Source: Patiria pectinifera
Lineage: Eukaryota > Echinodermata > Asteroidea > Valvatida > Asterinidae
Length of the DNA stretch: 64,000 nt
Assembly (NCBI GenBank): GCA_029964075.1
Contig: CM057149.1
Span: 32,508,900-32,572,899 of the forward strand
Direction of reading: 5' to 3'
Numbering within the stretch: the first letter of the stretch is position 1; every line of letters starts with the position of its first letter. Below, piece by piece: positions 13,115-59,568 of this stretch. A program made the translations under genes and the position numbers. The notes below the pieces were generated by a model that ran no database searches, was not told the DNA's origin, and worked only from the letters and a program-made list of their open reading frames with translations.

Positions 13115-14501
13115 ATTTGACAGGCAGCACGAATTCGCCCAGGGTAAATCGTGTTTGACAAACTTGCTTGAAACACTAGAAACGGTTACCCATGACCTAG
13201 ACGAAGGCAGCGGAGTAGACATCATCTTCTTGGGCCTTCGACTCAGTCCCACATAGACGACTACTAGGAAAACTGTCTACGTATGGAATTGAAGGAAAGA
13301 TAGCCAAGTGGGCGATTGAGGGTTTTCTAGTTGACAGATCTCAGGTAGTAGCAGTAAGGAATGCTGGATCAAGTCATGCAGAAGTTGCAAGCGGGTTCCT
13401 CAAGGCTCGGTCCTAGGACCGCTTCTTTTCATCCGGCACATCAACGACTTACATGGAATAGTAAATTCAAACGTTCAGATGTTTGCCGATGATATTAAAA
13501 TGTTCACAACGATAAAGTCACCGGAAGACGCAGTCAAACTTCAAAGTGATATCGATGCACTGCTGAACTGGTCCAAGATATGGATCCTACGATTTATGCA
13601 GACAAATGCAAATCCATGCATATGGGAAACAACAACCCGGGATGTGTCTACCATGCAGATGAGAGACACCAAATTACAGGAAACGGCTCAAAAAAGGCTT
13701 GGAAGTGTATATCTGCAACAACTGTAGGAAAGATTCCCACATCTCGCCATCAGTAATTTTCCCCTTAAATGACCTATCAGCCATCAGAAAGTGATAATAT
13801 GTCCTAAAAAGTGGAAATTAGCAGGGACATATTGAGTTTTTACTAAGAAAACACTTAGAAATTTTCAGACCAGTCCCATAGGTTTATGTACAGGGTTACA
13901 AGTGATGGCCAAATATGGGATTCTTTCCCAACTGTAAGTCGTCTGTTCAGTGTGCAAAGTCTGCTCAGAGTTATCAAAAAAACTTTCAAGCACATAACCA
14001 AGGATAGTTTTGCTGTTTTGTACAAAACATACATAAGGCCTCATCTTGAAAACTGCGTCCAAGCATGGAACCCAGGACTGCGGAAAGACATCTACACATT
14101 GGAGAAAGTGCAAAGAAGAGCAACCAAACTGGTTCCTGCTGTAGGACATCTGCTATCCGGACAGGCTAGAGGCACTCAACTTGTATAGCCTAGAACAAAG
14201 GAGATCAAGAGGCGACCTTATAGAAGTGGTCAAGATTTTCAACGGATTTGACAAAACAAAACCAACAAGATTCTTCAAAATCTCCAACACAACAGAAACA
14301 AGAGAACACAACATGAAGATCTTTCAGACTGGGATGACCAAAGCTCTGAGATGCAGGCAAGATTTTTTCTCCCAGAGAGTAGTCAACACCTGGAACAATC
14401 TACTAAGTTATTTTGTGAATGCCAAGACTACAAATTCTTTCAAACATGAGCTCGACGGGTACTGGAAGAGATATGGGGCCATAAAAGCTTATGAAGCCTA
14501 A
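13115..14501 (+). pseudogene. 5'-truncated, decayed LINE (CR1/L2/Rex-like reverse transcriptase)
   Basis: Translations read as fragments of a non-LTR reverse transcriptase. A GKSCLTNLLETLE-like stretch starts near 13140, and HRRLLGKLSTYGIEGK comes from about 13255. A degraded VPQGSVLGPLLF block lies near 13395-13430, followed by the catalytic FADD box at 13479 onward. The thumb region follows, with YIRPHLENCVQAWNP (about 14025) and YSLEQRRSRGDLIEV (from 14184), then FFSQRVVNTWNNLL. At least three frame changes separate these pieces, so it cannot make a protein. Endonuclease and ORF1 are absent. The clade is inferred from motif flavour only. Confidence 0.85.
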
Positions 14502-29500: not shown

Positions 29501-30193
29501 TTTGGTGGGGTGCTATCGCTCAGTATTTCCCTTACCCATGTAAACCGCAGTGGTTCCAGGCGATGAACAATCAGCTACGTATGCCATACCGATCGGATAG
29601 GATACCATACCAACGCCTTGCAAAAACATCCCCAGGTAGAATAGCGACATGGAGGCAGAATCGATGGCAACATCGTCACTCACAGATGAGCATTCCTCGG
29701 TGATGTCCGAGTCGTAGCAGGCAGAAGTCTCACCGGCGAAGCCCTGCGTGGAGTTGTCGCCAGTTGCCAGCACAACACTTGGGGGAAGGTAAAGATCATG
29801 AAGAAAGGCCGGCAGGGCATACATCAACGCACCAAGGCCAAGTGATATCCCAGAGACACCAAGCAGGCAAGGCTTGCAGCCGGGGACCACCGTGCCGATG
29901 CAGAAGGCCAGGAGGATACCGAGGATTCCCCCGACGCAATAGACGGTAGTCATGCTTCCCAGCTCGGTCAGCGTGAGCTGGAAGTGAGCTTCCACGGTGG
30001 TGATGGTGCCCGTATGCATACCAATGTTGATGCCATCGATGGCTGTGTAGACACACATTGCCACCAGAAACACCCAGGGCCGAGCCAAGCGCTTTAGGAA
30101 AGGCGGCTCCCAGCAACAAATGCCGCACCCATCCGCTTCGGGAGCCGGTAAAATGTCCAGAGTTTTCGAGTATTTTGCAGAAGATTCCGCCAT
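17293..30193 (-). CDS. Organic anion transporting polypeptide (SLCO/OATP family), 8 exons, 678 aa
   Basis: Eight exons join in frame with matching phases: 30193-29536, 25480-25133, 24340-24176, 22577-22373, 19610-19472, 19068-18875, 18024-17963 and 17558-17293 (2,037 nt with stop). The product is a 12-helix sodium-independent carrier for amphipathic organic anions in the plasma membrane. Family marks are the DPHWIGAWWLGF signature at about residues 263-274 (family usually has RW; here HW), FVPKYLE after helix 7, a Kazal-like extracellular loop 5 with PVC..YFSPCHAGC and SDCAC (about 468-515), and ESCGGQQGACLLY before helix 12. The length is typical. An upstream in-frame ATG at 30232 would add 13 residues; ATG 30193 was chosen because MAESS starts a normal cytoplasmic tail. 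The subfamily cannot be fixed by eye. Introns are full of MITEs. Confidence 0.93.
17963..18024 (-). CDS. OATP exon 7: 62-nt micro-exon, helix 11
   Basis: The exon is too short for an ordinary ORF search and was found from the phase gap between its neighbours. The acceptor is GAAACAG|ATCTG and the donor TTATTG|GTAAGC (phase 2 in, phase 1 out). It encodes VTSESRLVALSVAYLTQVI, matching the RSLALGVQWVIVRTLG block that vertebrate SLCO genes carry on a small exon at the same place. Confidence 0.88.
18210..18670. repeat. Minisatellite of GAGGACTTGT units in an OATP intron
   Basis: Imperfect 10-11-bp units (ACTTGTGAGG) run on both sides of the MITE at 18369-18586. The MITE therefore inserted into an existing minisatellite. 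Confidence 0.8.
18369..18586. mobile_element. MITE with GTCGCGTCAGTGCAAC ends
   Basis: GTCGCGTCAGTGCAAC(A)AGGTCGTA at the left end is repeated inverted as TACGACCTTGTTGCAC plus TGACGCGAC at the right. The 218-bp element has no coding capacity. AGGTCGTATCTC and its complement recur internally, giving extra hairpins. Confidence 0.85.
18875..19068 (-). CDS. OATP exon 6: end of Kazal-like loop and helix 10
   Basis: The acceptor AATGCAG precedes GGCAACTACTCC and the donor is GTGAG|GTAAGA (phase 0 in, phase 2 out). It encodes NYSDCACP, then GACGTQC and the hydrophobic FLLVLTGVFVLATFG helix. Confidence 0.92.
19472..19610 (-). CDS. OATP exon 5: first part of the Kazal-like loop
   Basis: The acceptor is TTATGCAG|CTCGG and the donor CCCAA|GTAAAA (phase 2 in, phase 0 out). 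It encodes APCNQNCSCSMALYAPVC and YFSPCHAGC, the conserved cysteine loop between helices 9 and 10. Confidence 0.92.
19813..19916 (+). mobile_element. Small MITE with CTAGACGTTGC / GCAACGTCTAG ends, copy 1
   Basis: A ~104-bp element in an OATP intron. The same sequence, inverted, lies at 20471-20596, so the pair forms a large inverted repeat about 0.8 kb long. Confidence 0.75.
20471..20596 (-). mobile_element. Small MITE with CTAGACGTTGC ends, copy 2 (inverted)
   Basis: The element holds GGTTGGTCGTGATAGCG and GGTTATCGCAGCGGCGGG, the complements of phrases in copy 1. It abuts the 470-bp MITE that starts at 20598. Confidence 0.75.
20598..21066 (+). mobile_element. 470-bp MITE (GGGTGCAGACCAGTAAAT ends), copy 1
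   Basis: The left end GGGTGCAGACCAGTAAAT is matched by ATTTACTGGTCTGCTACCC at the right end. Internal phrases such as GCATGCTGTGGGCCATGAAC and ACCTTGGAGAGTTGTGAG are shared with copies at 26962, 28260 and, diverged, 32043 and 32558. It is non-autonomous. Confidence 0.9.
21067..22372. other. OATP intron DNA with small palindromes
   Basis: No exon was found here. TAGTCTGGTTCC with GGAACCAGTCTA (about 21400-21482) and GGTTGGAAAAACC with GGTTTTTCCAAC (about 21370-21595) form nested inverted pairs. CCGACGCCTCAT / ATGAGGCGTCGG is inverted at 22067-22140. These look like decayed MITE ends. Confidence 0.5.
22373..22577 (-). CDS. OATP exon 4: helices 8-9
   Basis: The acceptor CAACAG precedes GTGTGCTGCTC and the donor is AGCAG|GTAGGG (phase 1 in, phase 2 out). 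A closer donor, GGC|GTGAGC, does not fit the phase of the next exon. It encodes LLAPAYAVGELLAGFLVKK and helix 9 (CVVLTACVVGMALLMVIGC). Confidence 0.9.
22604..22830 (-). mobile_element. Diverged partial SINE in OATP intron
   Basis: TATTTATAAAGTGCATG, CACATCATTATTA, GCTCATTTGAGTCAATGAAAC and CCATTTCAGC match, in order, the SINE at 62611-62980. The tRNA-like head is missing. Confidence 0.6.
22850..23200. repeat. Dispersed ~330-bp repeat with (CA)n, copy 1
   Basis: The repeat starts in (CA)n. It then carries GGACATTC(T)TTTGTTTTCGTGTA, ACTGTGAAAACTCT, CAACCCAA, TAACCTAACCCAAAAATGC and TGTGGACATCTTTTG. The same order occurs at 33104-33425. The family is unknown. Confidence 0.75.
23580..23842 (+). 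mobile_element. MITE with ATGGGCGTCGC / GCGACGCCCAT ends, copy 1
   Basis: The left end is ATGGGCGTCGCGAGG and the right end CTGGCGACGCCCATG. Poly-A and G/C runs lie inside, with AAACTGATAAATCGAGAATGT. Relatives occur at 41550, 42850 and 60453. Local frames rich in F, K or G come from its homopolymers. Confidence 0.85.
24176..24340 (-). CDS. OATP exon 3: helix 7
   Basis: The acceptor is GATACAG|AGTTC and the donor GACTG|GTATGT, phase 1 in and out, 165 nt. It encodes WRTLKNPTC, helix 7 and FVPKYLEVQFGYDRQTADLL, matching the LKNPTF..FLPKYLE block of the family. Confidence 0.92.
25133..25480 (-). CDS. OATP exon 2: helices 5-6 and family signature
   Basis: The acceptor TTTCAG precedes GCATCATCAAT and the donor is AAAG|GTAAGC, phase 1 in and out. 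It encodes GIINAVLGIGPVVGVML, the DPHWIGAWW signature and a charged cytoplasmic loop rich in E, T and N after FPLFPRR. Confidence 0.93.
26822..26948. repeat. Inner hairpin within the 2.8-kb foldback element
   Basis: TGTCATTCCAAAATC near 26822 is complemented by GATTTTGGAATGACA ending at 26948. Confidence 0.7.
26962..27431 (+). mobile_element. 470-bp MITE (GGGTGCAGACCAG family), copy 2
   Basis: Nearly full length and very close to copy 3. It has GGGTGCAGACCAG at the left and GGTCTGCTACC at the right, and ATA on both outer sides. It lies inside the 2.8-kb foldback element. Confidence 0.9.
27432..28259. repeat. Tandem pair of ~410-bp repeats
   Basis: Units 27432-27841 and 27842-28259 share, in order, GGCGCCTTCCATCGTTTGTT, GGGGCGGAACCTGGGG, AAATGCGCCCAAAATCTGAA, AATTTCGAGCGAACAAGGGG and GGTAGCCGCAAACAGAGGGC. 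G-runs differ in length. High identity suggests a recent duplication between the two 470-bp MITEs. Confidence 0.85.
28260..28729 (+). mobile_element. 470-bp MITE (GGGTGCAGACCAG family), copy 3
   Basis: Full length, same orientation as copy 2 and almost identical to it. The right end GGTCTGCTACC is followed by ATA, and the left end is preceded by TATA. Confidence 0.9.
28802..28930 (+). mobile_element. 3' tail of a SINE/LINE inserted in the foldback arm
   Basis: GTACAGCGCTTCGAAACACT and AAGCGCTATATAAATG are followed by (TTA)n. This is the usual 3' end of L2/CR1-type LINEs and their SINEs. It interrupts the right arm of the foldback element, so it is younger than that element. Confidence 0.75.
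29536..30193 (-). CDS. OATP exon 1: N-terminus and membrane helices 1-4
   Basis: 219 codons plus one base. The exon covers the cytoplasmic tail, helix 1 (RPWVFLVAMCVYTAIDG), helix 2 (GGILGILLAFCIG), helix 3 (LLGVSGISLGLGALMYALP), extracellular loop 2 with an NST glycosylation sequon, and helix 4 (LFYLGMFLQGVGMVSYPIG). It ends TACATGG with donor GTAAGG, phase 1. Confidence 0.93.
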
Positions 30194-30297
30194 GATATGT
30201 TCCTTCTCCCTATGCGCACGTGAAGCGGTCACGGCCGCGGCCGCTAATCCTCATTTGAATACAGTTGCCAGCTGTGGTATAATTTTAACTTTAATTT

Positions 30298-36889: not shown

Positions 36890-37552
36890 TGTTACTGTTG
36901 TTACTTTTTACTATATACAATGTACACCCACGTACGCTGTCTCGCCATTAAAAGTTTAAAAAGGGCAAAAAAGCGACCGTTTGTCCGCGAAACAACAAAT
37001 ACCTTGAGGGAAATGCTACTTGTTGTAGTCATGTATTTCAATAATAAAAGCATGGAGGCGCGTTTATAGGTTAAAGATCCTCGCTTTACCTGCAGTTAAG
37101 CTGAACCTTCAGACACAAAACCACAGACGGTTGAATATGAATTAGGCCTTGCTGTCAAGGGATTTAGAAAATCAGTCAGGCGGGACGCTCTTGTTCGTGT
37201 GGGCGCTCAACAATTGCGGCTTTCACTAGTAACGTATGTGTTCGTGGAATGTACACTACACGTAGAATGGTGTATGGGTATTTCTTGAACAGGAGAGGCC
37301 AACAACGTTACACATGTACATGTATATTTTGGAGCGCCAAATGAATGTTATAGACCTTTAGGGCGGACGAATATTAATATATCGAGAACACAGGACGTGT
37401 AGCTTGAGTGTTTCTGATCACGCAACATCACTACAGAGACTGTCAATTGTGTGAGGCACATCGTACCAAGCGGGCCCGTACACATGGAAACTTCTACCGA
37501 CCAATAACGGAAACACTATACCACACCGACTCCAAACTATACTCCATACACC
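36890..37552. promoter_or_regulatory. Upstream region of the potassium channel gene
   Basis: This stretch should hold the promoter and 5' leader. No clear TATA box was identified. A short upstream reading frame starts at 37408 and overlaps the channel ATG in another frame, so it could dampen translation if it is in the leader. Confidence 0.35.
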
Positions 37553-37889
37553 ATGAAACGTTGGCAACTGATGCTGATTGCCTGGTTTCTGTTCATTGGT
37601 TACCTTCTGGCGGGTGCTTTCTTATTCAGGGCAATTGAACACCCCGAAGAGAAGCTGGCGGAAGCCACCTTCTTCCAAGCCATGGAGGAGTTTCTGGACT
37701 CCCACCCCTGCATCTCCAGAGACGAGTTGTTCCACTACAGCAAAGTATTGGTAGCGGGGGCAGACAGGGGCGTGGTAGATTTCAACGAGGACCCTCTCCG
37801 TGGTCAAAATACTCATGTGGACGAGGAGAGAAGTGTCTGGGATCTTCCTAACTCCTTCTTCTTCTCAGCCACCATAGTCACTACAATCG
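37553..37889 (+). CDS. K2P exon 1: M1, cap and pore helix 1
   Basis: 112 codons and one base, ending ACAATCG with donor GTAAGG. It encodes LIAWFLFIGYLLAGAFLFRA (M1), HPCIS (cap cysteine) and FFFSATIVTTI up to the first filter glycine. Confidence 0.94.
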
Positions 37890-40316
37890 GTAAGGAGTTG
37901 CGTCCGTGCACGCAAAGATTTAGACCTAAACGTAAAAATTAGAAAGTGTTTGAGACGGCCCATAAGACACTGGCTTTTCGTGAACCTGTCTAAAACTTTG
38001 GAGGAAGATTTTAAGATCCTACCATGGTCATTAATGGTCAGGAACAAACAAAATTTTGAAATAAATCTTCAAAAGCATTTGAGGCAATTCCCTATATCCA
38101 CTTCAGCCCACTCAGAACAGAACACCCCAAACCACTTCGCCACATTGCCATTTAGCTTGTCGGAGATCGTCGGCTTGGCCCACAGTATGTGCGCATTGGC
38201 CAGAAGATTGCAAGTAATGTTTCAGGTTGTTTACTTACCAATATTTCAATGATGTATAGCTCAGAAAAAAGAAAACAATTCCATACAAGGCCACCACTCA
38301 TATTCCTTAATATGACCTGTAAAGTACCAAAAGTTGTAAATCTAATGAAGAAACACTATTGTAGGCGTGCAAAATTCTTTTGATAATACTTTATTTTTCT
38401 GTCTTGGCCCATTGACTTCGTGCAGGGGGTTTGAGTGGTGGCCTTGTATGGAATTCTTTCCAGAGAGAGTCCACACAATGTATGAAATTTGTGAAGAGGG
38501 GGTTTGAAAGCCCTGTTTGTTTACGCCAGACGACGGAGTCAGTTGTTGCCTTGGGTTCTTGTGCTTCGAACAGTGCATAAAGCCTTCCAAGCATGACAAG
38601 GCATTCAAAGCGTTCATTATTCGAAAACAATTTCATTGAGTTTTAAACATGTGAACCCCAAATCTGTGCAACTATATGTAATACGATCATTCGGGGGAAA
38701 CGCCGTTTATACAGAGAGGCATATTATCAACCAAATTACTTTTATTAAAGACCTTGCATAAGTTTTATTTGTGTTTTTTAACTGAGCAGAAACATAAAAC
38801 CTCCATTGAAACAAATGGGTATAAAATTATGGGTACGGTGTGTACTGTGGGTATACCACAGTTATCCTTTTGTCGCCAGTTTTTTTTTCACCGTAAATAA
38901 CTTTTATTATCGCCAGTAATTGCAAGTGTTATAAAAAAACATGATTTAGTGATTTACGAAAATGTACATGTAGTTAGAAAATACTGAAGAAAAAATTCAC
39001 GACTCCCAAAAGACTTTGGTCTATACACTGCATTTCACAAATAAGAGAAACGGTCTTTTGCAAATCGTGTTTGGTTGTACACGTTTTAAGAGAGTACATG
39101 TACTTCCGCAAATTGTGAGCCGTTTTAAATGGGCCGAGTGGCGATGGGGCAAAGTTTGAAACGGAATGTTTATGATCCATACCGTGGCACTTGTATATAC
39201 TACGTGTAGTAAAGAGTATTATTTCATGACCATGTACCATTGATATGAACAAGCCTTCGTACTAATTACAGGTAATGAGTTCGAACCCCCCCCCCCCATT
39301 CCATCATTAATCGTTCCATTGATTAATTTCAATTTTTTTTTGCCTGCACAGGCTACGGAGACATTACGCCTCAGACACCACTGGGCCGATTGGTCTGCAT
39401 GATCTACGGTGCCATTGGACTACCCCTTACAGCATGGGTTATAGGTGTCATTTCACGCTCTCTGACAGCATACTGGACCAAAGCACTGGACAAGGCTGAC
39501 AACATCCTACTTCTCTGCCTCAGGTTTGCCCGATTACGGAAGACCGTCATGGTCCTCCTGACCATAGTGGTGTTGTACGCGATACTGCTCCAGGTTCCGG
39601 CCGTCGTGCTTGGATACATTGAACAATGGTACACCTTGACGGCGGTGTACTACCTCTTCATCACCTTGACGACAATAGGATTTGGGGATTTGGTGGTGGG
39701 TAATCATCCGGACTTCACACTGCCAGCTAAGTGGGTGCTCAAGATTTGCATGGTGCTGTACGTGATACTGGGCCTCAGCCTCCTGGTGGCGCTATCATCG
39801 GCCATTGCGGAGCGTGCCAATAAAGCGGTCAAGAAATCAATCGTACCCTCAAACAGCTACCAGGTCGAACGCGTGAAGAGCAAGAAAGGGCGGGAACGCA
39901 TGAACGCCATGCTGGAAAATGAAATTGCGCTGAGTCACGTGCCGAATCTGTTATCCGCTAGGATGACAGATTCTTGCTCAGATTTTAAAACCGCGGACGA
40001 GGGACTGACTGACGCCGAAGAAGCGGCGTTTGAGATGCGGTCGCTTAGCAACCACAAGGAAGATGTACCACCGGATTATGAAGAGATCGTCATAGACACA
40101 TGCCTATCAGAGTCCAACGGCACCTTGTGCATAGTGTCACCGACCGATAGGTCTGACAGTAAGAAGTTAGCAGCAGACGAACTCTCTGTGCACCGGTCAT
40201 CCACGGGCAACGGTCACGTTACTGAAAGAAATGGGAATACATGTATCTATACTATTTCAAAGGACGAATACGGGCGTGCTGCTTTCAAGAGCCCATCCAT
40301 GGTGGATCACACGTGA
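37553..40316 (+). CDS. Two-pore-domain potassium channel (K2P/KCNK family), 2 exons, 433 aa
   Basis: Exons 37553-37889 and 39352-40316 join in phase 1. The protein is a background K+ channel of the plasma membrane: M1 (about 5-27), extracellular cap with Cys53 that can bridge the dimer, pore 1 TTIGYGD (GYG at 113-115), M2 (127-149), M3 (176-203), pore 2 TTIGFGD (GFG at 222-224), M4 (241-265) and a ~165-aa acidic/Ser-rich cytoplasmic tail. Both filters are intact. The pore-2 FITLTTIGFGD and the short M1 leader resemble the TALK/TASK-2 (KCNK5/16/17) branch, but the subfamily is inference. Start: first ATG (CACCATGA context) that puts M1 at the N-terminus. The intron lies inside the first Gly codon of GYG, a position known in other animal K2P genes. 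Confidence 0.94.
39352..40316 (+). CDS. K2P exon 2: pore 1 filter to C-terminus
   Basis: Acceptor TGCACAG, then GCTACGGAGAC (GYGD). It encodes M2-P2-M4 and the tail, ending with TGA at 40314-40316. The tail has an acidic stretch (LTDAEEAAFEM) and PPDYEE, and no ankyrin or coiled-coil domain is seen. Confidence 0.94.
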
Positions 40317-46013: not shown

Positions 46014-46309
46014 TCAGCAGTTTTGGTGCCAGAGAAGATACCATTCGGCCTGTGAGGACGACTGAATACCAAACGCTCGTACGGGTATTGGATTACCGAG
46101 GACCCCTTTACCCATCGCCTCCATCAATAAAGGGTGTGTCTCGTCCTGATTTTCCACGCTGAGCGCCGCATCAGCCGGGTCAAAGGTGATCCAGAATCCC
46201 CGGAATTCATCGGGGCTGAGGGCTTCGAAGGTCAAGTCGACTTCGGTTATGGTGTCCAGGCCTTTAGCTGACCGTTCCCTGATGTAAGTGCCTTCCGTAG
46301 TGCTTATTT
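46014..46309 (-). CDS. Secreted FAMeT-like protein exon 9: second half of Methyltransf_FA domain
   Basis: Acceptor CAATTTTAG before AAATAAGCAC; stop TGA at 46014-46016. It encodes TTEGTYIRERSAKG, DEFRGFWITFDPADAALSV, HPLLMEAMGKGVLG and PIPVRAFGIQSSSQAEWYL, then LLWHQNC. These match the R-x-F-W-I-x-W and PLPV..(I/V)G(I/V)S core of the family. Confidence 0.83.
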
Positions 46310-49300
46310 CTAAAATTGACAAAATGATAATGGACAGAACAATGTATCCGGATCGTAAGTATCATCGTTATTTCTACTCAAACCACGCCCACTACACATG
46401 TTACACTTTGTTTACATGTATATTTTCCAATGGAGCCAGTGGGGGCGCGCGGTACACAAAGCACCCATAGGAAAGCACACGCGTAAACAAACTGTGACGT
46501 CATCAGTACTGAGGCTTATTGGAAACATTGGAACCCGGAAGTGGTAATGGGCCTTAGTAATCAGTGGTGCGTGCGTGTGATAGACGCAGTCGAGTCGCTC
46601 ACGGACCGGATACAGTATTATTATGTATAGTGGTGCCCCCTAACGTTGCGCACTTCAACGTTTCCCCTGAATATTTCCTCATGCATTTTGTTGCCAAACT
46701 ATTACATGTATTAATCATTTCTGGTAATGAAACCAAGGATTCCTCATAAGCGCCCTAGGCACTGTAGCTCGCAAGCCTGAAGAAACCTGTAGAGAGAAGA
46801 CAATGAGAAGAAATTACAGTTTGAGAGGTGGGAGGAAAAGCCCAGAAGAATATTCTGGGGAAAACCCACGGAATCAGGCAGGGACTGAAAACCCAATCCA
46901 CTATACTAAACTTTAAAACTGTACGTAAAATACTGGTACTTTTACCTTAATATGCTTGCCTGTTGAACCTTTGTGAACAAATTCAGTGTCACGAAAATAA
47001 GTCCGAAATTCAAAAACGGTAGCGCCCGGAAATTAGGCACAACATCAGCTGAGTGTTCCCTAACGTGGCGCACTTGAACAAACCTCGGAAAATCCCAATT
47101 AAACATGTAAGAAATGTCTTTAAAGTTGAAAAATTCTGATAAACCATTAATATCTCTACTCACATGTATACCCAACTAGAAGTTTGTCAGAAAACTATAT
47201 TCGGACTAAATTAACATTATTCTACATTCGGACTATCAAACCTTCGGTCAAATGAACATTCGGACTAACGAACCTTCGGACTATCGTTTTAAATGCTCGG
47301 ATAAACGAATCTTATTTCATTTTCGGACTAATAAACCCCCGGTTATGGAGAAATTTGTGTGTTCGGACTATCGAACCTTCGGTTCAATTAACATTCGGAC
47401 TATCGAACCTTCGGCTATCGAGCGGACCCCACTACAACAATCCGCCGGAACCGTGGAGCTGTAGATTATAGTGTTGTGTGGCCTATACCCTTTCTTCACG
47501 AGCCGGTCATAATAAACTGAAAATGAGGTAACCTATGCAAGTGTGGTCAATCTGTGCCGGCGAGTGGGGGGGGGGGATAATCAAAATCCAAAAATTGCCC
47601 GTCCATGGAAATGAGAAGGGGGTGCGGACACCACATTTCACTAGGGGTGTGCTCTTCAGGATACATCAATATGTATACTCGCGCATACATCAAAACGGCT
47701 CTTGAATACATTTTTGTTGTTGGCATGTTAAAAAAAATATCTCGAAATCCGCATTTTTTTTCGCATCACAAACAAGTGAATCCCCAACGTAACCTCCCCC
47801 CCCCCCGGATTTACGCCCCTGAACTCTTCATTTTCGAAATGAAAGTAATGAATAAAAGTTCATTAAAAGTTAATACCAGTCTGCTCTGATGACTAATTTA
47901 AAATTTGTGATTAAACACCATAATGTTTTTAAACCACATTTAAAAGAAAATGAAAGTGAGGCTTGGAACGCATACCAATCATAAAATAGTCTGGCACCAT
48001 CCCATTTAACAGTTTACAATTTATATAATAATAATAATACCGGATTCTTATATATAGCGCACGTATCTACCAACACTAATAGGTACTCAAGGCGCTGGAA
48101 ATTATGCCTTTTATTAGAAACAGGTAAATGAATTTTATGAGAAATATGAGACCCATTGTGTAGCATCTTACAAGAGTTACAAGGTGCTGCGGCGCATATT
48201 GCAGTCACTGCCAGAAACACCTGGGCGAACCCTTCTCTTAGCGATAAGTGTTACTGGGTTCTTTACTGTGCATTACACAACACACGGGACCTACGGCTTT
48301 ACGTCCCATCCGAAGGACGAAGCAATAATGGTAAAGTGCCTTGCTCAAGAGCACAAACACCATGTTCCCACGGTCAGGATTCGAACCCATGTACCACGGC
48401 ACACGAGTTGAACACTGTAACCATTAGACCACAGCACCCCAAAAAGACACAGGGAACACGATCAAAAATGGCTTCCTCGCGAATAAGGTCTATTCAGAAG
48501 GTCCAGCGAAGGGCATATAATAGTACGCGAGCGTTCGGCACTGTTTTGTAAATTCGAGCGATTTACAATGAAGTGCGCAACCAAGAGTTTGCCATGGAGA
48601 TGGACTATCTTTCAAGTTTACGGTCGACAAAACATGGCCCATTTGAATGAGTGTCAATAGGCAACTTGAGCTAATATGTTATAGATTGGGACACAGCGTT
48701 CTGCCGCCTTACAAAAGAAACCACCATAAAAAAAAACAGAATTTTTAAAGAAAATGGCAAACAGATTTTCGAATCATACGCTTACGAAACTACTGACCGG
48801 AAAAAAATAACAATTTCAAATGTCCCATGCTACGAATTTGTTGACCATCTCCCACAATGCACTGGGAAAATTAACTCTCCGTGGCAAACTCTTGGTGGCG
48901 CGCTGCATTGAAAAATAATGTCCGTAGTTCAGGCAGGTGAGGACTGACTTACGTATCTCGTAGTAGAGCACAGGTTCTGATACAGTGTGCAGGTACACAG
49001 TGACTGAAGAAGAAGATGTGCGCACAGAGAACTGAATCTGGAACGGTGTGTCAGGCAACATCAGCACATTGAACTGTACCACTCCGTTGTTTGTAGAGTA
49101 TGAGGGACAACCTATAAATACAATCGGGATGAAACCCATTCAAACTGGTATTTGTTATAAAGCCAAAAAAACTCTGGGGAAAAAATCCCCAAATATCAAA
49201 ATTTCGTTCTTTTGCTGTTTACTTTGACATTTGAACAGTAAAAAGCAAGTTGGATTTCGAAACAGGGTTCACTTGGTTGAAATCCTTTAAAGAACTCATG

Positions 49301-52300
49301 CTAGTCAAAGAGTGATCAAACTAAACTGGTAAGTTCGGGGCCTGTTGGTTTAATTCCAGATCCAGATCGAGATCTAACGCCGTGCGAAACAAACACAACC
49401 GCTCTCGTGCGTCGAATCCTTTAGGCGCACGCAAAATGTCCTCTGCTTTAGGTTTTGGACAGAAGGGCTATTTTTATATATATCATTCTATAATTTCCAG
49501 GTAAAGTAAATTAAGCGATTTATTTTAAATTGCGAAAATACATTCTAAAATAATAACGACGATTAATTGTCACAAAAGCTAATTTGATGCGTCCAAACAC
49601 TTTTTCTTTCCGTCCGTCGCGCACGTCGCCATCTGTGATCTTGCTAATCCACCTCGCGAGCAGGATCCGTTAAAACGTGATCTGGAGCAGCTATCGACGC
49701 GCCGGATCACTGATCGCGATCAGGATATGCGCCAAACAAACAGGCTCAAATTAAAGAGTATAAGCGCGCAAGTTTGCATTGTGTCATGTACAGCGCCCCC
49801 AAGTGTCATGTGGTGTCATCCCCTTCCCCCTCCCTCAAGCAATTAGGCAACTGATAATTGGTAATAAGATAAGGTTTACGGTAGCACCATGTGACAAATG
49901 TTCTCTTTTTTTCGTTTGTGAGGTTCTGAAAAAGAACCGGGGATCAACGTTTCGGACAGTATGCTCTGCCCGTCGTCAGGTGACTCATGACGACGGGCAG
50001 GGCATACTGTCTGAAATGTTGAGTTTCCCCGGTTCTTTTTGAGAGCCTTGCAAACTTACAAGGGACATTTATCACGTGGTGCTACCGTTAACGCTATCAT
50101 TGTGCTACTTTCACCATGCAAACATTTAAATCTTATCTGATCATTGATAATCACGCATGCGGCAGCTATGCATCGCAATACTGGTAAGATAACAACGTTG
50201 GCGCACAGGCGCAAGGTACCAGTCACGTGTTACCATAAATAGAGCACCGACAATCTTTGGTCGCCCACCCAACGCCTCACAACATCCATTTTATTTCGTG
50301 CTTGACTGACGTCTTTACTAACAGGAGTTACAACCACTTTAGATATCAATGTTTCATAATTCCCCCCGGCGTTGCCCGGGTTAAAAGGCGCTAAATTTAT
50401 GCGCACCATACGTACGTGAATAATTAACTAGGCTAAATCTAATAAAAATTTACGAGTTTTTAACTTAACTGACAGGCAAACTAATATGACGATGTGACCT
50501 CGCCAACGTTGTTTACATACAATCATAGACCATATTCAGTGTTACCCACGTATCTGTAGTAATTCATTGGCCGGTGTGTCGTTTGAGACATTGTTGGAGG
50601 CATCGCAAGAAACGTTTTTGCTAAAGAACATGAGCAATTCATCTTAAATTCGCAATCTATACTGATCAACCGGAAAATTACATCTAATTTGGTTGCTTTT
50701 TATATACTTACCAAGAGGCCTTAATTAAATGCTTCTGTTTGGCTTCCGAACCATCAACCCAGTCAACCTCGTCATAATCAAAATTCAAAATCTTGAGAGA
50801 TAACGAATATCTTGGATTGAATTTGGTAATCACCTGTGGCAGTCGTTGGGGGCGATGTTGCTGAGGTTGCCGACGATGATGGAATCTGCTCCGGCGGCTC
50901 TCGGGGATCATCCGCGGGAATTTCCTCTGATAATAGATTTATATTCAGCCGTAAGTGGGGCGCCTTTTATAAAAACAAATTTCGGATGATAACGTGACTC
51001 CGGCTGAGGGGTTTCAACAGCATCGCTGATATTTTTATACATATCATAATGTAATTAGATGAATGAAATAGTGACATGATAAATAATAACGATGATAAAT
51101 TGTCACAAAAGCTAATTTGATGCGTCCAAACACTTTTTTCTTTCCGACCGTCACGCACGTCGCCATCTGTGATCTTGCTAATCCACCTCGCGAGTGGGAT
51201 CCGTTAAATCTGGAGCAGCTATCAACGCACCGGATTACTGATCGCGATCAGGATATGCGCCAAACAAACAGGCTCAAATTGAAGGGATGTAAGCGCGCAA
51301 GTTTGCATTGTACCATGTGCAGCGCCCCCAAGTGTCACGTGGTGTCATCCCCTTCCCCCTCCCTCAAGCAATTAGGAAACTGATCATTGGTAATGAGATA
51401 AGGTTTACGGTAGTACCATGTGAAAAAAAATCTTCTTTTGTTGCGTTTGTGAGGTTCTGAAAAAGAATCAGGGATCAACGTTTCGGACAGTATGCTCTGC
51501 CCGTCGTCAGGGGACTCATGACGACGGGCAGGGCATACAGTCTGACTTGTTGAGTTTCCCCGGTTCTTTTTCAGAGCCTCGCAGACTCACAAAGGACATC
51601 TATCACGTGGTGCTACCGTTAACGCTATCATTGTGTTACTTTCACCATGCAAACATTCAAATCTTATCTGATTATTGGTAATCACGCATGCGGCAGCTAT
51701 GCATCGCAATACTGGTAAGATAATAACGTTGGCGCGCAGGCGCAAGGTACCAGTCACGTGTTTACCATGAATAGTGCACCGATAATCCTTGGTCGCCCAC
51801 CCAACGCCTTACCACCATCCATTTTATTTCGTGCTTGACTGACGTCTTTACTAACAGGAGCTACAACCACTTTAGACATCAATGTTTCATAATTTCCCCC
51901 GGCGTTGCCCGGGTTAAAAGGCCCTAAATTTATGCGCACCATACGTACGTGAATAATTAACTAGGCTAAATCTAATAACAATTTAAGTGTTTTTAACTTG
52001 ACTGACAGGCAAACTAATATGACGATGTGACCTCGCCAACTTTGTTACATACAATTAAAGACCATATTCAGTGTTACCCACGTATCTGTAGTAATTCATT
52101 GGCCGGTGTGTCGTTTGAAAGATCGTTGGAGGCATCGCAAGAAACGTTTTTGCTGAAGAACATGGGCAAGTTTCGCAATCTATACTGATCAACCGGGGAA
52201 AAAAAACATCTAATTTGGTTGCTTTATATATTAAGAGGCCTTAACTAAATGCTTCTGTTTGGCTTCCGAACCATCAACCCAGTCAACCTCGTCATAATCA

Positions 52301-55300
52301 AAATTCAAAATGTTGAGAGATAACGAATATCTTGGATTGAATTTGGTAATCACCTGTGGCAGTCGTTGGGGGCGATGTTGCTGGGGTTGCCGACGATGAT
52401 GGAATCTGCTCCGGCGGCTCCGGCGGCTCTCGGGGATCATCCGCGGGAATTTCCTCTGATAATAGATTTATATTCAGCAGTAAATGGGGCGCCTTTTATA
52501 AAACAAATTTCAGATGATAACGTGACTCCGGCTGAGAGATTTCAACAGCATCGCTGATATTGTTATACATATCATAATGTAATTAGATAAATGAAATAGT
52601 GAAATAGCTCTGAGCCTTATCAGCCTGCGTTGTTAGAAAGACCAACGCAAACCTCAAGTTTTGAAACTGAAACGTTGGCACGAAAATATTTTTCAATTAG
52701 TCTATGTCATACTCATAGAAATAAGAGAAAAAGGTTGGTATCCTACCTTGTGTGCCATTGAAGATACACCTATAACTGGTAGCCGTCTCCTCACATCGAT
52801 GCAGCTCTGGACACGGGTTGGAGAGGCAGGCTATTTGGCAGAGGTATAAAACAAATTGTCGTACTATTGATTTCAATTCGTAAAGACCAATCTGTACACG
52901 CTATACATCCACGGAGGCCGCCTTCAATGGCGAAAGCATTGTGCTAGCTATTGTTCAGATAAAAAACGTCACGGGACAATTGCTTTGTACAATAGCTGTC
53001 ACAGTGCTTTCGCCATTGGAGGGGGCCTCCGTATTATGTACTGTCGGGATCTTGGGATTTCCCAGTCATTTAACTGCTACGAATGTATACATTTGTCATT
53101 TTGACCCAAACGTGCTGAACTGGGCCTATACACGTCAGCATATTAACCCATGTGTCAACCTAGTCACAATTGAAATTCAAAATTTCGAGAGGGTACGAAT
53201 ATCTTCGATTCAATTTTATATTCACCTGTTGCAGTCGTTGGGGCCGATGTTGCTGGGGCAGCCGGCGTTGATGGAATCTGCTCCCGAGGCTCCGGGGGTT
53301 CATCCGCGGGAACTTCCTCTGATAACAGATTTATATTTAGCAGTAAATGGGGCGCCTTTCATAGACTTTCGCCGTTCTTTTGGATTTTAAAATTTAAGAG
53401 GACACAGGAGTTCAATTTTGTTCAAAAATGAAGTCTCAATTTTAGATTTGTTTTATGATGTCAGAAATACTTGGTCAAAGTGTAATCTTTCTACTGCAAA
53501 GGAAAATCAAACAGGGTCGTAGCTAGGTCATTTTTGTGGGGGGGGGGAGTAAACATTTCTTGAACAAGGGCACTTGCATACCCTTGCTTAAATGTAGACA
53601 CGTTAAGTTTGTTGTCGGGACACTTGGCCTCCGTAAAATCAAACAGTGGTGGGGGGGGGGGGCTGGCGCCATCCGTCGACTGGTATTATCTGTTCATAAC
53701 CGACGAGTATGCACGCTAACGGACAATATATGGCGCTTTTCAGGGCGAAACATGCGCAAAAAAATTTTGGGGGGAAGGCACTCGTTAAAGCCGCTGGTAC
53801 AAAAAAAAGGCTTACTTTTTTTTTTAAGGGCAGTCGGTCGGGAAAAGGGCACTTGTAAACAAAAGAAGGGCACGCTTTACAAATGGGGGGGGGTAAGCGC
53901 TAGTGAAAACGAGCATTAAAATGGAAAAGGAAAGTCAAAATATTGTGGGGTAAATACCCCAGTAACCCCCCCCCCCCACCAACACCCCCCACCCCCGCCA
54001 CTGATCGCCTATGATAAATGAAAATAACTGGAAAACGAAAACACTTTACTACAGTAATGTTAATTTCAATTAAGTTTAGTGAGTTTTCTTAACAACAGTT
54101 ATGAAGACTTCATCACCCAAAAGGCAGCCCCCTAGCACGTCAAGGAAAATGAATTTGTTAACCATGAACCTGTTTTCATAAAGTTTCATAATAATGGCGT
54201 CATTAACGTTGGCACGTTGTGAAGGAATATATTTCAATTGTGTCATACTCATAGAAATAAGAGAAAAAGGTTGGTATCCTACCTTGTGTGCCATTGAAGA
54301 TACACCTGTAACTGGTAACCGTCTCCTCACATCGATGTAGCGCTGGACACGGGTTGAAGAGGCAGGCTATTATGCAGAGGTATAAAACAAATTGTCGTTC
54401 CATGGATTTGAATTCGTAAAGACTCCTCCGTGCATGCTATACATCCACAGACTAGAGGGCCCCTTCAATGGCGAAAGCATTGTGCTAGCCATTAGTCAGA
54501 TAATGCGTCAAGGGACAGTTGCTTTGTACAGTAGCTGGCGGCCTCCTTAAATGTACAGTAAGTTGACCTTATTCACGAGGAAGCCATTTTCGATGGTATT
54601 CCCTGAATCTATTTTATACATTGTAAACTGTTGAATGGGATGGTGCCAGACTTGCATGGAGTGCGTGCCAAGCCCCACTTTTATTTTATTTTTTAATGTG
54701 GCACAAACATTACACTCTAAATAGTCCTGTGTGATCAACTTGACCCAGAATCCGGGCCCCATCATGGGGCCTGACACTTGTAGGGGTCAAAGGACACTTT
54801 TCGAGTCACAGAAGTGTAATTTTGACCCGGAAAATGTCATTGTTTGACCCGGGAAAAGTGTCATTTCTACTCGCAAATTCCCAAAAGGAAAAGTTTACCT
54901 ATACAGTCTACAGCGTGCTCGGATCGGTCTCGGTTAAGGTCTTAAAAGACCTACATGTACATACACGTCCGCCAGCAGTATGTACGCTGAAGTCACCATT
55001 AGTTACGGAAACGCTATCACTTTGACTGAGTCACTGGCGTAACTATAAGGGGGACGTGGCACAGTAATTTTTGGACGTGCGTGTAATCATCACTGAAGTC
55101 TATAGAAGTCGATTTACTGGTCTGTACCACCTGCACATAAACTGTTCCTGCCATTTGTGTGGGACGAGCCAAGATGGCTGCTCTCTCTCTCTTACCTGGC
55201 AGTGTGCACTTGGGGGGTTCCGGGCGATACCTGACTCGGCCCCCTCGTCTGATGACCGTATCCGGCTGTCGCTTAGCAACCATCTGGATCTTGGCCTTAC

Positions 55301-56737
55301 CGATCAGCTTCGTCGGACAGTCCAAACTCACGGGACAGGATTCAAAGTCTGAACTTCGTTCCTCTTGAAAACATTTCACTAATGAAAAGGACAAAGCGAA
55401 TTGACTTTCTATGAGAGTTTGTTTTTGGGTTTGTTTTCTGCGGCATTTTAAGCATCTTAACGCACTTTTAATGACGTAAAGGTCAAGTGTGGGGGGAGGG
55501 CTGGAGTATCAATCGTTTCGTTAATGGGAAGGGATTAAGTATTACAGTATCGTGCGCTAATTCCACATTCTATTAAAACTAGAGGGTATATGTATTCAAT
55601 TCAACTTCACATTATTTTATTTCCATGCTTCATGAGAAAAAATTGCAAACTTTTAGAGTAAACGGTTCAACCATAAATCAGTAAAATATCAAATTTACAG
55701 CAAAACTAGAGGATCGCGTTTGTTGAGTTACAAACGCAGAGTGGTCGGGCAGACAACTTTTTCTTTGGGCCTAAACACTGCCAAGTTAAAATATGAATAT
55801 GTTTATGTAAGAGCAAAGGATGACGAAATTGAGTCCTCTTGAGTACAATCAATTATTTTGTTTGAAAAATGCATCTCGAACGGTTTGATAAATTTCAGTA
55901 AACATTCTATGTACACATACAAGTAGTTATTTCTGGTTTGATGACGTCATCAGTTAAAAACGAGAAGTGAATACTGATTTAGTTCGGAGAGGATAAATGT
56001 TCATATTGAAGTTCAAATAACGTATGAAAATGTGGAAAATATAAGTGTAAGTTTTAATAATACCCAACTTCCGGTTTGATGACGTCACAGCATTAAAGAT
56101 CTAAAGGTCAACAATGTAACCAATACCATTATTTGGGCTACGAAAGCAGTCATAAGACAGGGATTACATGATAGAAGTTACGGGGAAAAATTACCATTTT
56201 CGAATTCCTCCTACAGTAACTTCCGGTCTGATGACGTCATAATTGTGAAACCTTACAAAGTTATATAATTATAGTTGATAACAAAATAACAAGGGGCAAT
56301 TTGGTAAAATTTGGACGGATAGTTTTTAAATTAAAACAAAAGGAAACCCTATTTAATGTTCCGCTAGAGGGCGCCCTTTCAAATGATGACTTCATAATGC
56401 TGCTTTGTGTCCTTTATTCCGTTCTTAACACTTCCATAATTTATTTGCAATAGTAAAGAGCTTCCGCTTTCGAGTTATATTCAATTTTCATTTCACTTCC
56501 GGTAACACCGGGCAGTCCCCCGTTGCCCCCCCCCCCCCCCCGATCTTCCAATGGACCAATTTCGGATGGGGTACATTGAGCAATATATGTTGTTACGTAG
56601 CTTAAAGGTTAACATTAAGCAGTAAAAAGGTGCGTATGAACATTCTGGCTTTCTGAACGGAAAGAATCACACTTACCACTGGTTGATAATGAGGTTATCC
56701 AAACTAGCAACAGCAGGAAATCCAACCTCAACCCCAT
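46014..56737 (-). CDS. Secreted modular protein with Methyltransf_FA (FAMeT-like) domain, 9 exons, 374 aa
   Basis: Exons: 56737-56677, 55348-55196, 54366-54283, 53318-53226, 52830-52747, 52455-52354, 50926-50834, 49111-48953 and 46309-46014 (1,125 nt with stop). Every intron is phase 1, so the middle exons are symmetric modules that can be duplicated without frame damage. Order: signal peptide, Cys-rich module ending CTLP, two EGF-like modules cut to four cysteines, Pro/Thr/acidic linkers, and a C-terminal Methyltransf_FA domain (from residue 224) with YLHTVSEPVLYYEI, TYIRERSAKGLDTITE, LSPDEFRGFWITFDP and PIPVRAFGIQSS. Despite the family name, such domains in animals have no shown methyltransferase chemistry; extracellular binding is likelier (inference). 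Inclusion of each linker exon in one transcript is unproven. Confidence 0.8.
46493..46541. repeat. Fragment resembling the CRE-ETS satellite
   Basis: TGACGTCATCAG followed by ACCCGGAAGTGGTAAT echoes satellite phrases. It lies in the last intron of the secreted protein gene. Confidence 0.4.
47220..47425. repeat. Minisatellite of TTCGGACTATCGAACC units
   Basis: Seven or so imperfect units of about 24-32 bp contain CATTCGGACTATCGAACCTT. Each unit carries overlapping short inverted repeats (TTCGG/CCGAA-type). Confidence 0.75.
48018..48441 (-). mobile_element. tRNA-derived SINE with (ATT)n tail
   Basis: On the minus strand it starts GGGGTGCTGTGGTCTAATGG (A box) and carries GGTTCGAATCC (B box) about 40 bp on. 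It then has GAGCAAGGCACTTTACC and ATGGGACGTAAAGCCGTAGG, and ends with a LINE-type tail and (TTAT)n at 48018-48037. It lies in the last intron of the secreted protein gene. Confidence 0.85.
48953..49111 (-). CDS. Secreted FAMeT-like protein exon 8: first half of Methyltransf_FA domain
   Basis: Acceptor TTTATAG before GTTGTCCCTC, donor AGATAC|GTAAGT, 159 nt, phase 1-1. It encodes GCPSYSTNNGVVQFNVLMLP then SVTVYLHTVSEPVLYYEI. The YEI strand is the usual start of the conserved core. Confidence 0.8.
49840..50160. mobile_element. Foldback MITE with strong central hairpin, copy 1
   Basis: Outer arms: ATTGGTAATAAGATAAGG and GGTAGCACCA on the left, TGGTGCTACC and CTTATCTGATCATTGATAAT on the right. 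Centre: AAAAGAACCGGGGA..CAGTATGCTCTGCCCGTCGTCA and its near-perfect complement around a ~9-nt loop near 49985. Confidence 0.85.
50834..50926 (-). CDS. Secreted FAMeT-like protein exon 7: linker 3
   Basis: 93 nt, phase 1-1. EEIPADDPREPPEQIPSSSA continues into TSATSPPTTAT. It lies in the first copy of the 1.5-kb tandem duplication and keeps acceptor TTATCAG and donor CACAG|GTGATT, so it should be spliceable. Confidence 0.72.
51370..51690. mobile_element. Foldback MITE with strong central hairpin, copy 2
   Basis: The same element carried along in the tandem duplication. The GCCCGTCGTCA / TGACGACGGGC core is kept. Confidence 0.85.
52354..52455 (-). CDS. Secreted FAMeT-like protein exon 6: linker 2
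   Basis: 102 nt, phase 1-1. EEIPADDPREPPEPPEQIP continues into SSSATPATSPPTTAT. It is three codons longer than exon 7 through an extra PEP/EPP-type unit. It lies in the second copy of the 1.5-kb tandem duplication. Confidence 0.72.
52747..52830 (-). CDS. Secreted FAMeT-like protein exon 5: four-cysteine EGF-like module 2
   Basis: 84 nt, phase 1-1, same splice sites as exon 3. It encodes CLSNPCPELHRCEETATSYRC and NGTQ. Intron sequence on both sides is also shared with exon 3 (TCATACTCATAGAAATAAGA), so exon and flanks were duplicated together. Confidence 0.78.
52907..53030. repeat. Inverted pair in a duplicated intron
   Basis: CCTTCAATGGCGAAAGCATTGTG near 52920 is complemented by ACAGTGCTTTCGCCATTGGA near 53000. 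The left half recurs at about 54460, with the duplicated EGF-like exon. Confidence 0.7.
53226..53318 (-). CDS. Secreted FAMeT-like protein exon 4: Pro/Thr/acidic linker 1
   Basis: Acceptor TTATCAG, donor CAACAG|GTGAAT, 93 nt, phase 1-1. It encodes EEVPADEPPEPREQIPSTPA then APATSAPTTAT, a flexible, probably O-glycosylated linker. It is the most diverged of the three linker exons. Confidence 0.72.
53514..54012. mobile_element. Non-autonomous element with GGCGTAGC-type ends, copy 2
   Basis: GGGTCGTAGCTAGG at the left, then GGCCTCCGTAAAATCAAA, TATATGGCGCTTTTCAGGGC and long G- or C-runs, and GATCGCCTATG at the right. It has the same phrase order as 12330-12780. Confidence 0.75.
54283..54366 (-). 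CDS. Secreted FAMeT-like protein exon 3: four-cysteine EGF-like module 1
   Basis: Acceptor ATAATAG, donor CACAAG|GTAGGA, 84 nt, phase 1-1. CLFNPCPALHRCEETVTSYRC has the EGF spacing C-x4-C-x5-C-x8-C, but cysteines 5 and 6 are absent before the exon ends at NGTQ. NGT is a glycosylation sequon. A near copy is exon 5. Confidence 0.78.
55090..55130. mobile_element. Solo end of the 470-bp MITE family
   Basis: GTCTATAGAAGTCGATTTACTGGTCTG matches the right end of the family; nothing of the left end is present. Confidence 0.55.
55196..55348 (-). CDS. Secreted FAMeT-like protein exon 2: Cys-rich module
   Basis: Acceptor AAGTTCAG, donor TGCCAG|GTAAGA, phase 1 on both sides, 51 residues. It encodes DFESCPVSLDCPTKLIGKAK, then IRRGGRVRYRPEPPKCTLP, with three cysteines. 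I do not recognise the fold. The exon makes sense only as the module between signal peptide and first EGF-like exon. Confidence 0.7.
55900..56420 (-). repeat. Diverged inverted relative of the CRE-rich satellite
   Basis: The minus strand carries TGACGTCATCA + base + ACCGGAAGT exactly at 56239-56219 and with one change at 56087-56067; a weaker version lies at 55949-55929. CGCTAGAGGGCGCCC near 56363 matches the satellite's GAGCGCCCTCTAGCGACAG inverted. It lies in intron 1 of the secreted protein gene. Confidence 0.7.
56677..56737 (-). CDS. Secreted FAMeT-like protein exon 1: signal peptide
   Basis: Twenty codons and one base encode MGLRLDFLLLLVWITSLSTS, an ideal signal peptide, before donor CAGTG|GTAAGT. 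The phase-1 exit fits exon 2. Confidence 0.8.
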
Positions 56738-58762: not shown

Positions 58763-59049
58763 CCATTGTCAACCCATATGCATCAGTGCTGTCTAGCTAT
58801 ATACAATACTGTCGGCACTTAGCGTGCGATTAGTATATGCAGGAGGCACATCAACCGCTTGCTTCGTCAACGACATAGCCTATGACGTCACAAGGAAATA
58901 AATTATAAAGCTCATAGTCTAGTGCATGCACAGCATCCATGCATACACGGACTGTCTATAGTGATATCAGGGCTAGGCTTGACAACAGCCATCATAATCA
59001 TCATTTTCTGGCTATACGGCATTTTTGCCAATGCGCGCCACATAAAAAA

Positions 59050-59568
59050 ATGGCGAAATGCCAAGTGCCCGAGTGCTTCAACCGGCGCGATAAGGACAAA
59101 GGCAAGAAGAGTTTCTTCCGCATCCCCGACCCGGCCAAGGGGTACCGGGACCTGGCCCAGAGGTGGCTGACCAACATCGGCTCGGGTAGGCAGGTGGAGG
59201 GCTTCGTCTTCTCCAAGAATAAGCTGGTTTGTGAGGACCACTTTGAGGTGACGTGTTTCAGGGAGGATCTGCAGGCCCGGGTGCTTGGTTACCGGCCGGC
59301 GCGCAAGAAGCTCAAGCCGGGCTCCGTGCCAACCATCTTCGCGAGCTGTCAGGACGGGAGACGGGACCCGCAGCGACTATGGCCCAGTCAGCATCTCACG
59401 GTTGGCCGCAAGGTGGGCAGTTTGGTGGGAATGTCAATTGTATTGACGACCTGTCATGAATATTCATGTTTGGTTATTATGAGCGCGTGCATTTCAAACG
59501 GTAATAGCTATGGCGGCATGCTCTTCAACAAGTTCTTTTTCCCCCTCTCAATAAATTTTGATCTTTGA
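59050..59568 (+). CDS. THAP zinc-finger domain protein, 172 aa
   Basis: A C2CH THAP domain occupies residues 1-98: MAKCQVPEC supplies Cys4 and Cys9, KKSFFRIP follows, W39 is in place, VCEDHF supplies Cys61 and His64, and GSVPTIF near residue 91-97 is the AVPTIF-type closing motif. THAP domains bind DNA and occur in host regulators and in P-element-like transposases. Only the domain plus a ~70-residue unconserved tail is present, with no DDE or coiled-coil segment visible. A donor-like AAG|GTGGGC at 59412 could instead splice to an unseen exon. ATG 59050 is chosen because it starts the domain exactly; the frame is open back to 58939. Confidence 0.85.
   Translation: MAKCQVPECFNRRDKDKGKKSFFRIPDPAKGYRDLAQRWLTNIGSGRQVEGFVFSKNKLVCEDHFEVTCFREDLQARVLGYRPARKKLKPGSVPTIFASCQDGRRDPQRLWPSQHLTVGRKVGSLVGMSIVLTTCHEYSCLVIMSACISNGNSYGGMLFNKFFFPLSINFDL
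59550..59555 (+). terminator. Poly(A) signal AATAAA near the THAP stop
   Basis: AATAAA lies just inside the end of the open frame and is followed by T/G-rich TTTTGATCTTTGAGCG. It supports a short transcript, although it overlaps the last codons. Confidence 0.4.

Follow-up and report, generated by a model that had tools for sequence, protein, structure and literature searches.

A sea-star gene built from phase-1 exons for a probable secreted EGF-like/FAMeT protein, with unequal cassette numbers in two near-identical copies

The window analysed here is a stretch of 64,000 nucleotides (C21:32508900-32572899 of a 613.5 Mb genome). We consider it fairly probable that the gene described below is a single-locus, apparently lineage-specific sea-star gene for a secreted, disulphide-rich glycoprotein of the adhesive, mucus or matrix type. 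The combination of EGF-like modules with a FAMeT domain (PF12248) is already known; the modules private to this locus and the difference in cassette number between its two copies are what is new.

The gene was rebuilt from the DNA and consists of a 384-codon open reading frame in nine exons on the minus strand, running from 56737 to 46014, exactly the span given by the first-pass annotation (Table 1). The eight introns are all GT-AG and all in phase 1, no internal stop codon is present, and the internal exons (183, 84, 93, 84, 102, 93 and 159 bp) are each divisible by 3. As phase was a criterion in the choice of the exons, the uniform phase by itself is weak evidence, and the splice junctions read from the DNA are putative. 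The predicted protein begins with a signal peptide (judged by eye), followed by the module of exon 2 (X2), by four-cysteine EGF-like modules (E) and Pro/Thr-rich linkers (L) in the order E-L-E-L-L, and by a FAMeT domain on two exons (F1 and F2). It contains 14 cysteines in 384 residues and two N-G-T sequons, one following each E module, and 68% of the linker residues are Pro, Thr, Ser or Ala.

Table 1. Features of the gene and its neighbours (positions in the window)
Feature	Position	Strand	Remarks
Exon 1	56677..56737	-	holds the start codon and, judged by eye, a signal peptide (MGLRLDFLLLLVWITSLSTS); donor in phase 1; open in second copy
Exon 2 (X2)	55196..55378	-	61-residue module with four Cys; elsewhere only in second copy
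Exon 3 (E1)	54283..54366	-	truncated EGF-like module with Cys 1-4 alone; an N-G-T sequon past Cys 4
Exon 4 (L1)	53226..53318	-	linker rich in Pro/Thr/Ala
Exon 5 (E2)	52747..52830	-	truncated EGF-like module, the second of two; matches exon 3 at 79 of 84 bases
Exon 6 (L2)	52354..52455	-	linker rich in Pro/Thr/Ser
Exon 7 (L3)	50834..50926	-	linker; in the other half of the 1.5-kb tandem repeat than exon 6
Exon 8 (F1)	48953..49111	-	first half of FAMeT domain; ends just past Tyr-Glu-Ile
Exon 9 (F2)	46014..46309	-	second half of FAMeT domain and stop codon
Candidate polyadenylation signal ATTAAA	45953..45958	-	3' of the stop codon; putative
Tandem duplication	49548..52605		halves 49548-51077 and 51081-52605, 92.1% identical; holds linker exons 7 and 6
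Reverse transcriptase fragment (PF00078)	13335-13727	+	E 4e-9
OATP organic anion transporter exon (PF03137)	29513-30250	-	E 1e-19
Ion-channel pore exons (PF07885)	37508-37942, 39327-40316	+	E 8e-4 and E 3.5e-21, respectively
THAP domain (PF05485)	58918-59568	+	E 4e-13; possibly transposon-derived

A second copy of the gene lies inverted at C21:32642632-32652448 (plus strand) and comprises ten exons coding for 411 amino acids. All ten exons are open, and AG and GT are kept at every splice site. Because this copy, an independent check, keeps all exons open and preserves every splice site, we regard the gene model as real and its coordinates as well supported. Together with the rebuilt gene, this intact copy bears out the earlier description of a modular gene with eight phase-1 introns; the signal peptide, which had also been claimed, was judged present by eye.

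Eight exon pairs were compared between the window and the copy, leaving out L2 of the window and the exons Ea and La of the copy and matching the E and L exons by similarity. They differ by 13 substitutions in 1053 bases and by no indel, whereas in those parts of three introns that could be aligned there are 85 substitutions in 3634 bases and 16 indels that are not multiples of 3 (Fisher p 0.027; Poisson chance of exons free of such an indel about 0.01). Outside the pairing, exon La of the copy carries one in-frame 6-base insertion relative to L1. The eight nonsynonymous and five synonymous changes correspond to a pN/pS of 0.51, a value that fits constraint but stems from too few changes to carry weight alone. 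Within the FAMeT intron, a stretch at about 46580-47550 is without counterpart in the second copy; 16-base tandem repeats (47227-47421) fall inside it.

The E modules resemble the EGF-like domain (PF00008, PF07645) in the spacing of Cys 1-4, in an N-P-C motif and in their phase-1 exon, but they have four cysteines where EGF spacing has six, and they lack Cys 5, Cys 6 and the loop at the C-terminal end. In the Pfam search proposed by the first-pass annotation no EGF model passed its cut-off (EGF 7.0 bits versus 21.5, EGF_CA 9.5 versus 27), and the best of the weak matches of the E-L-E stretch was not an EGF model but Lustrin_cystein (E 0.03; 15.1 bits versus 27). Apart from the locus and its copy, the E module matched the genome in two places, both of them six-cysteine EGFs and both weak (E 0.26 and 0.32), the better one being flanked by candidate phase-1 splice sites. 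With a true EGF of the same genome the E module shares 47% identity across 30 residues. The best reading of the four-cysteine modules is that they are truncated EGFs, and an EGF origin appears likely. The gene model supports both the truncated EGF-like modules and the Pro/Thr-rich linkers of the earlier description.

The linker DNA was found at six places in the genome, three per copy, X2 was found solely in the window locus and the copy, and for the F1 exon, with which the FAMeT domain starts, no further genome match was obtained either. X2 has no Pfam match. A structure prediction for exon 2, likewise proposed beforehand, yielded a beta-rich model for X2 alone (pLDDT 76), for which no match was found among the solved structures in the PDB. 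The modules are private to one locus and the gene is apparently lineage-specific. An expanding family with the same module order had been suspected; X2, E, linker and F1 turned up solely at the locus and in one copy, apart from the two weak matches of E to true EGFs, and that copy is probably the other haplotype (see below).

For the C-terminal FAMeT domain, which had also been claimed before, the Pfam support is borderline, and the domain would be a divergent one: PF12248, with a cut-off of 24.2 bits, scored 24.3 on exons 8 and 9 joined, 21.2 on the whole protein and 17.9 on exon 9 alone. Comparisons with paralogues add to this assignment. In an alignment with four genomic FAMeT domains (21-28% identity) 12 columns including YEI are invariant, the last of them, the final Cys, being helped by trimming of the sequences to that residue. 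A profile built from five paralogue exons gave exon 9 a score of 18.1 bits, compared with 2.3 for the best of 200 shuffles. Of the 13 paralogue matches examined, five have a candidate phase-1 acceptor just past YEI, at the equivalent place: L007, L008, L035 and two in L039. The rest have another intron, have none there or gave no clear picture. Donors past Tyr-Glu-Ile were seen at two of the seven paralogue loci scanned (L036, L041), and the six best genomic FAMeT matches (L001-L006) as well as one match in L034 have no intron at this site. The intron at YEI is common to some FAMeT members and not universal. By the 12 columns and this intron site the domain shares core residues and, with some of them, gene structure with other PF12248 members. 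The closest relatives of exon 9 in the genome are remote (E 0.14 and 0.30). Exon 9 alone gave a poor structure model (pLDDT 45).

At the level of the domain alone, FAMeT is expanded in this genome, with PF12248 at 90 places at E <=0.001 among 99 scored; the window gene is outside that set. The suggestion of an expanding family of recognition or matrix proteins fails for the architecture, which is probably single-locus. Two clusters of PF12248 exons, C18:1592610-1632076 and C18:22271427-22305139, with a spacing of about 3-6 kb, have the appearance of short FAMeT genes in tandem array (L039). L039, in such an array, and L035, elsewhere on C18, resemble the window gene in the candidate phase-1 acceptor at the equivalent place of the domain, and an aromatic C-terminus whose final Cys immediately precedes the stop codon is common to the window gene, L039 and L012 (on C13). 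In contrast, the short genes on C18 show no EGF-like pattern in the stretches examined, and linker DNA was found nowhere but at the window locus and in the copy.

We considered whether two adjacent genes had been misjoined, the upstream one coding for a small secreted protein of EGF-like modules and linkers and the downstream one being a short FAMeT gene in its own right. The same genome seems to include short FAMeT genes that have their own signal-peptide-like exon (L039), and exon 8 is preceded by a 1.7-kb intron that contains part of the duplicated stretch. However, the frame is in phase 1 to either side of the join, and the second copy has the same exon order. Moreover, a rough scan of the second copy (L029) for signal peptides gave two candidates; they lie at 309 and 9062 of the locus, and neither directly precedes exon 8 (at about 7413). 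We therefore judge a misjoin to be quite improbable and treat the nine exons as one gene.

Concerning the nature of the second copy, two alternatives were weighed. First, it could be the other haplotype of the same locus, left unmerged and placed head to head in the assembly; second, it could be a true inverted segmental duplication, so that the copies would be a young pair of genes instead of two alleles. Both copies are on one scaffold, about 77 kb apart, in an inverted, largely colinear block whose aligned sequence, about 54 kb, is 96.2% identical (inverted blocks of more than 500 bases near the main diagonal), as a duplication would also have it. But the homology on the window side ends at C21:32600344, 55 bases short of a run of 500 N starting at 32600400; the 184 kb examined contain no other N run. 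Because the homology stops at this gap, the second copy is probably the other haplotype. Close matches of X2, F1 and F2 were found at exactly two places in the genome, as two haplotypes predict, and a segmental duplication is accordingly unlikely. If the haplotypes are unmerged here, the assembly may overstate the number of genes. The inverted near-copy covers much of the right part of the window (about 22100-64000), and its arms meet at the 500-N gap.

The two copies differ in their cassettes, the order being E-L-E-L-L in the window and E-L-E-L-E-L in the copy. The last two linkers of the window are carried by the 1.5-kb tandem repeat; the second copy has repeated E-L units instead, and in a repeat comparison of both copies no 1.5-kb tandem repeat was listed for it. 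Symmetrical phase-1 exons would let whole cassettes come and go with the frame intact, and a difference of this kind between near-identical copies would be a snapshot of exon gain and loss. Misassembly of the repeats would be another explanation for the cassette difference. Rather tentatively, we propose that stalk length is a heritable trait varying between haplotypes by in-frame gain and loss of cassettes, so that the binding head would be the same in all individuals while the stalk varied in length and glycan load. A near-palindrome, perhaps a small mobile element, was seen by eye in each half of the 1.5-kb duplication (about 49950-50020 and 51480-51550).

The first-pass annotation had regarded the gene as its best candidate for an undescribed system, which was overstated, since secreted proteins with EGF-like and FAMeT domains are known from sea-star footprints (PMC9382459). 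According to the parts of this source consulted, footprint proteins of Asterias rubens carry FAMeT domains, some together with EGF, in adhesive gland cells, and the role of FAMeT in them is stated as unknown. Among them Sfp3, Sfp4a and Sfp7 combine EGF-like and FAMeT domains as the window protein appears to do, a likeness by domain description (PMC9382459). Sfp3 and Sfp4a bear the accessions OP067638 and OP067639. When the window protein is held against this combination in one secreted protein, its FAMeT domain is borderline, its EGFs are truncated and its signal peptide was judged by eye. The Sfps are described as longer (Sfp3 1184 aa; Sfp4a 769 and Sfp7 941 aa, though incomplete), Sfp3 and Sfp4a as having calcium-dependent EGFs, unlike the truncated modules found here, and the layout differs in that Sfp3 also has WAP or antistasin domains and Sfp7 a hyalin domain (PMC9382459). 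The exact module arrangement of the window protein was not found in the portions consulted of that account of sea-star footprint proteins. In arthropod proteins, as far as the excerpts consulted go, PF12248 is paired with a second PF12248 or with DUF3421 (PMC10015273), whereas in the window protein EGF-like/linker cassettes precede it. Passages from the respective papers also report FAMeT in abalone and mussel shell contexts (PMC6003135, PMC8194122) and name PF12248 as a domain of CPAMD8-type thioester proteins (PMC9363628). The terms 'farnesoic' and 'methyltransferase' are absent from the main text of the Patiria miniata skeletal proteome paper (PMC5460417).

The gene structure, the intact second copy, the FAMeT homology, the likely EGF origin and the difference in module number are grounded in the DNA itself, and on this basis we propose how the protein could work. 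The signal peptide would direct its export from the cell. Each short EGF-like module is predicted to have two disulphides and one N-glycosylation sequon, and together with the linkers, which are probably O-glycosylated, these modules would make up an extended stalk. At the C-terminus, the FAMeT domain would be a head that binds a glycan or matrix partner without acting as an enzyme; it is probably a beta domain. The likeliest workplace would be a secreted layer, for example tube-foot adhesive, mucus or matrix. The methyltransferase activity implied by the name FAMeT is doubtful for the family: in the sections consulted of one account, methylation has never been reliably demonstrated, and a fly mutant had unchanged hormone levels (PMC10015273). 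As far as these sources were consulted, FAMeT domains recur in the glue of sea stars, in the shell matrix of molluscs and in proteins of the CPAMD8 type, with no established function beyond a doubtful enzymatic one. A small protein in which a single FAMeT head is borne on a cassette stalk would lend itself to expression and to binding tests.

Alternatively, the protein could act in innate immunity, as a recognition or effector protein of the coelomic fluid whose FAMeT domain binds microbial glycans and whose cassettes vary among individuals. The apparent secretion, the abundance of cysteines, the unequal cassette number of the copies and the presence of PF12248 in CPAMD8-type thioester proteins, as given in the consulted part of PMC9363628, agree with such a role. 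A sign of diversifying selection is missing, however, as far as the few changes behind the pN/pS can tell, and this gene does not form a tandem family in the genome. We hold an immune function for unlikely and prefer the adhesive, mucus or matrix type of protein.

The neighbours in the window give no pointer to the function of the gene. The PF07885 exons at 37508-40316 (plus strand) are presumably those of a two-pore-domain potassium channel. A bindin match (E 1e-33) was obtained in the same genome and points to an echinoderm, bindin being of echinoderm range. The genome also contains an exon of a SALMFamide precursor with seven peptides, including GFNSALMF, AFHSALPF, GYHTGLPF and PAGSPVFHSALTY, all of which are reported for Patiria miniata in the part of PMC3594158 consulted. 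One Patiria miniata peptide ends in TALPF (same part of PMC3594158), an ending that is absent from the SALMFamide precursor exon of this genome. The sea star of this genome thus appears close to Patiria miniata and, because of the absent TALPF ending, may be a close relative of it rather than the same species.
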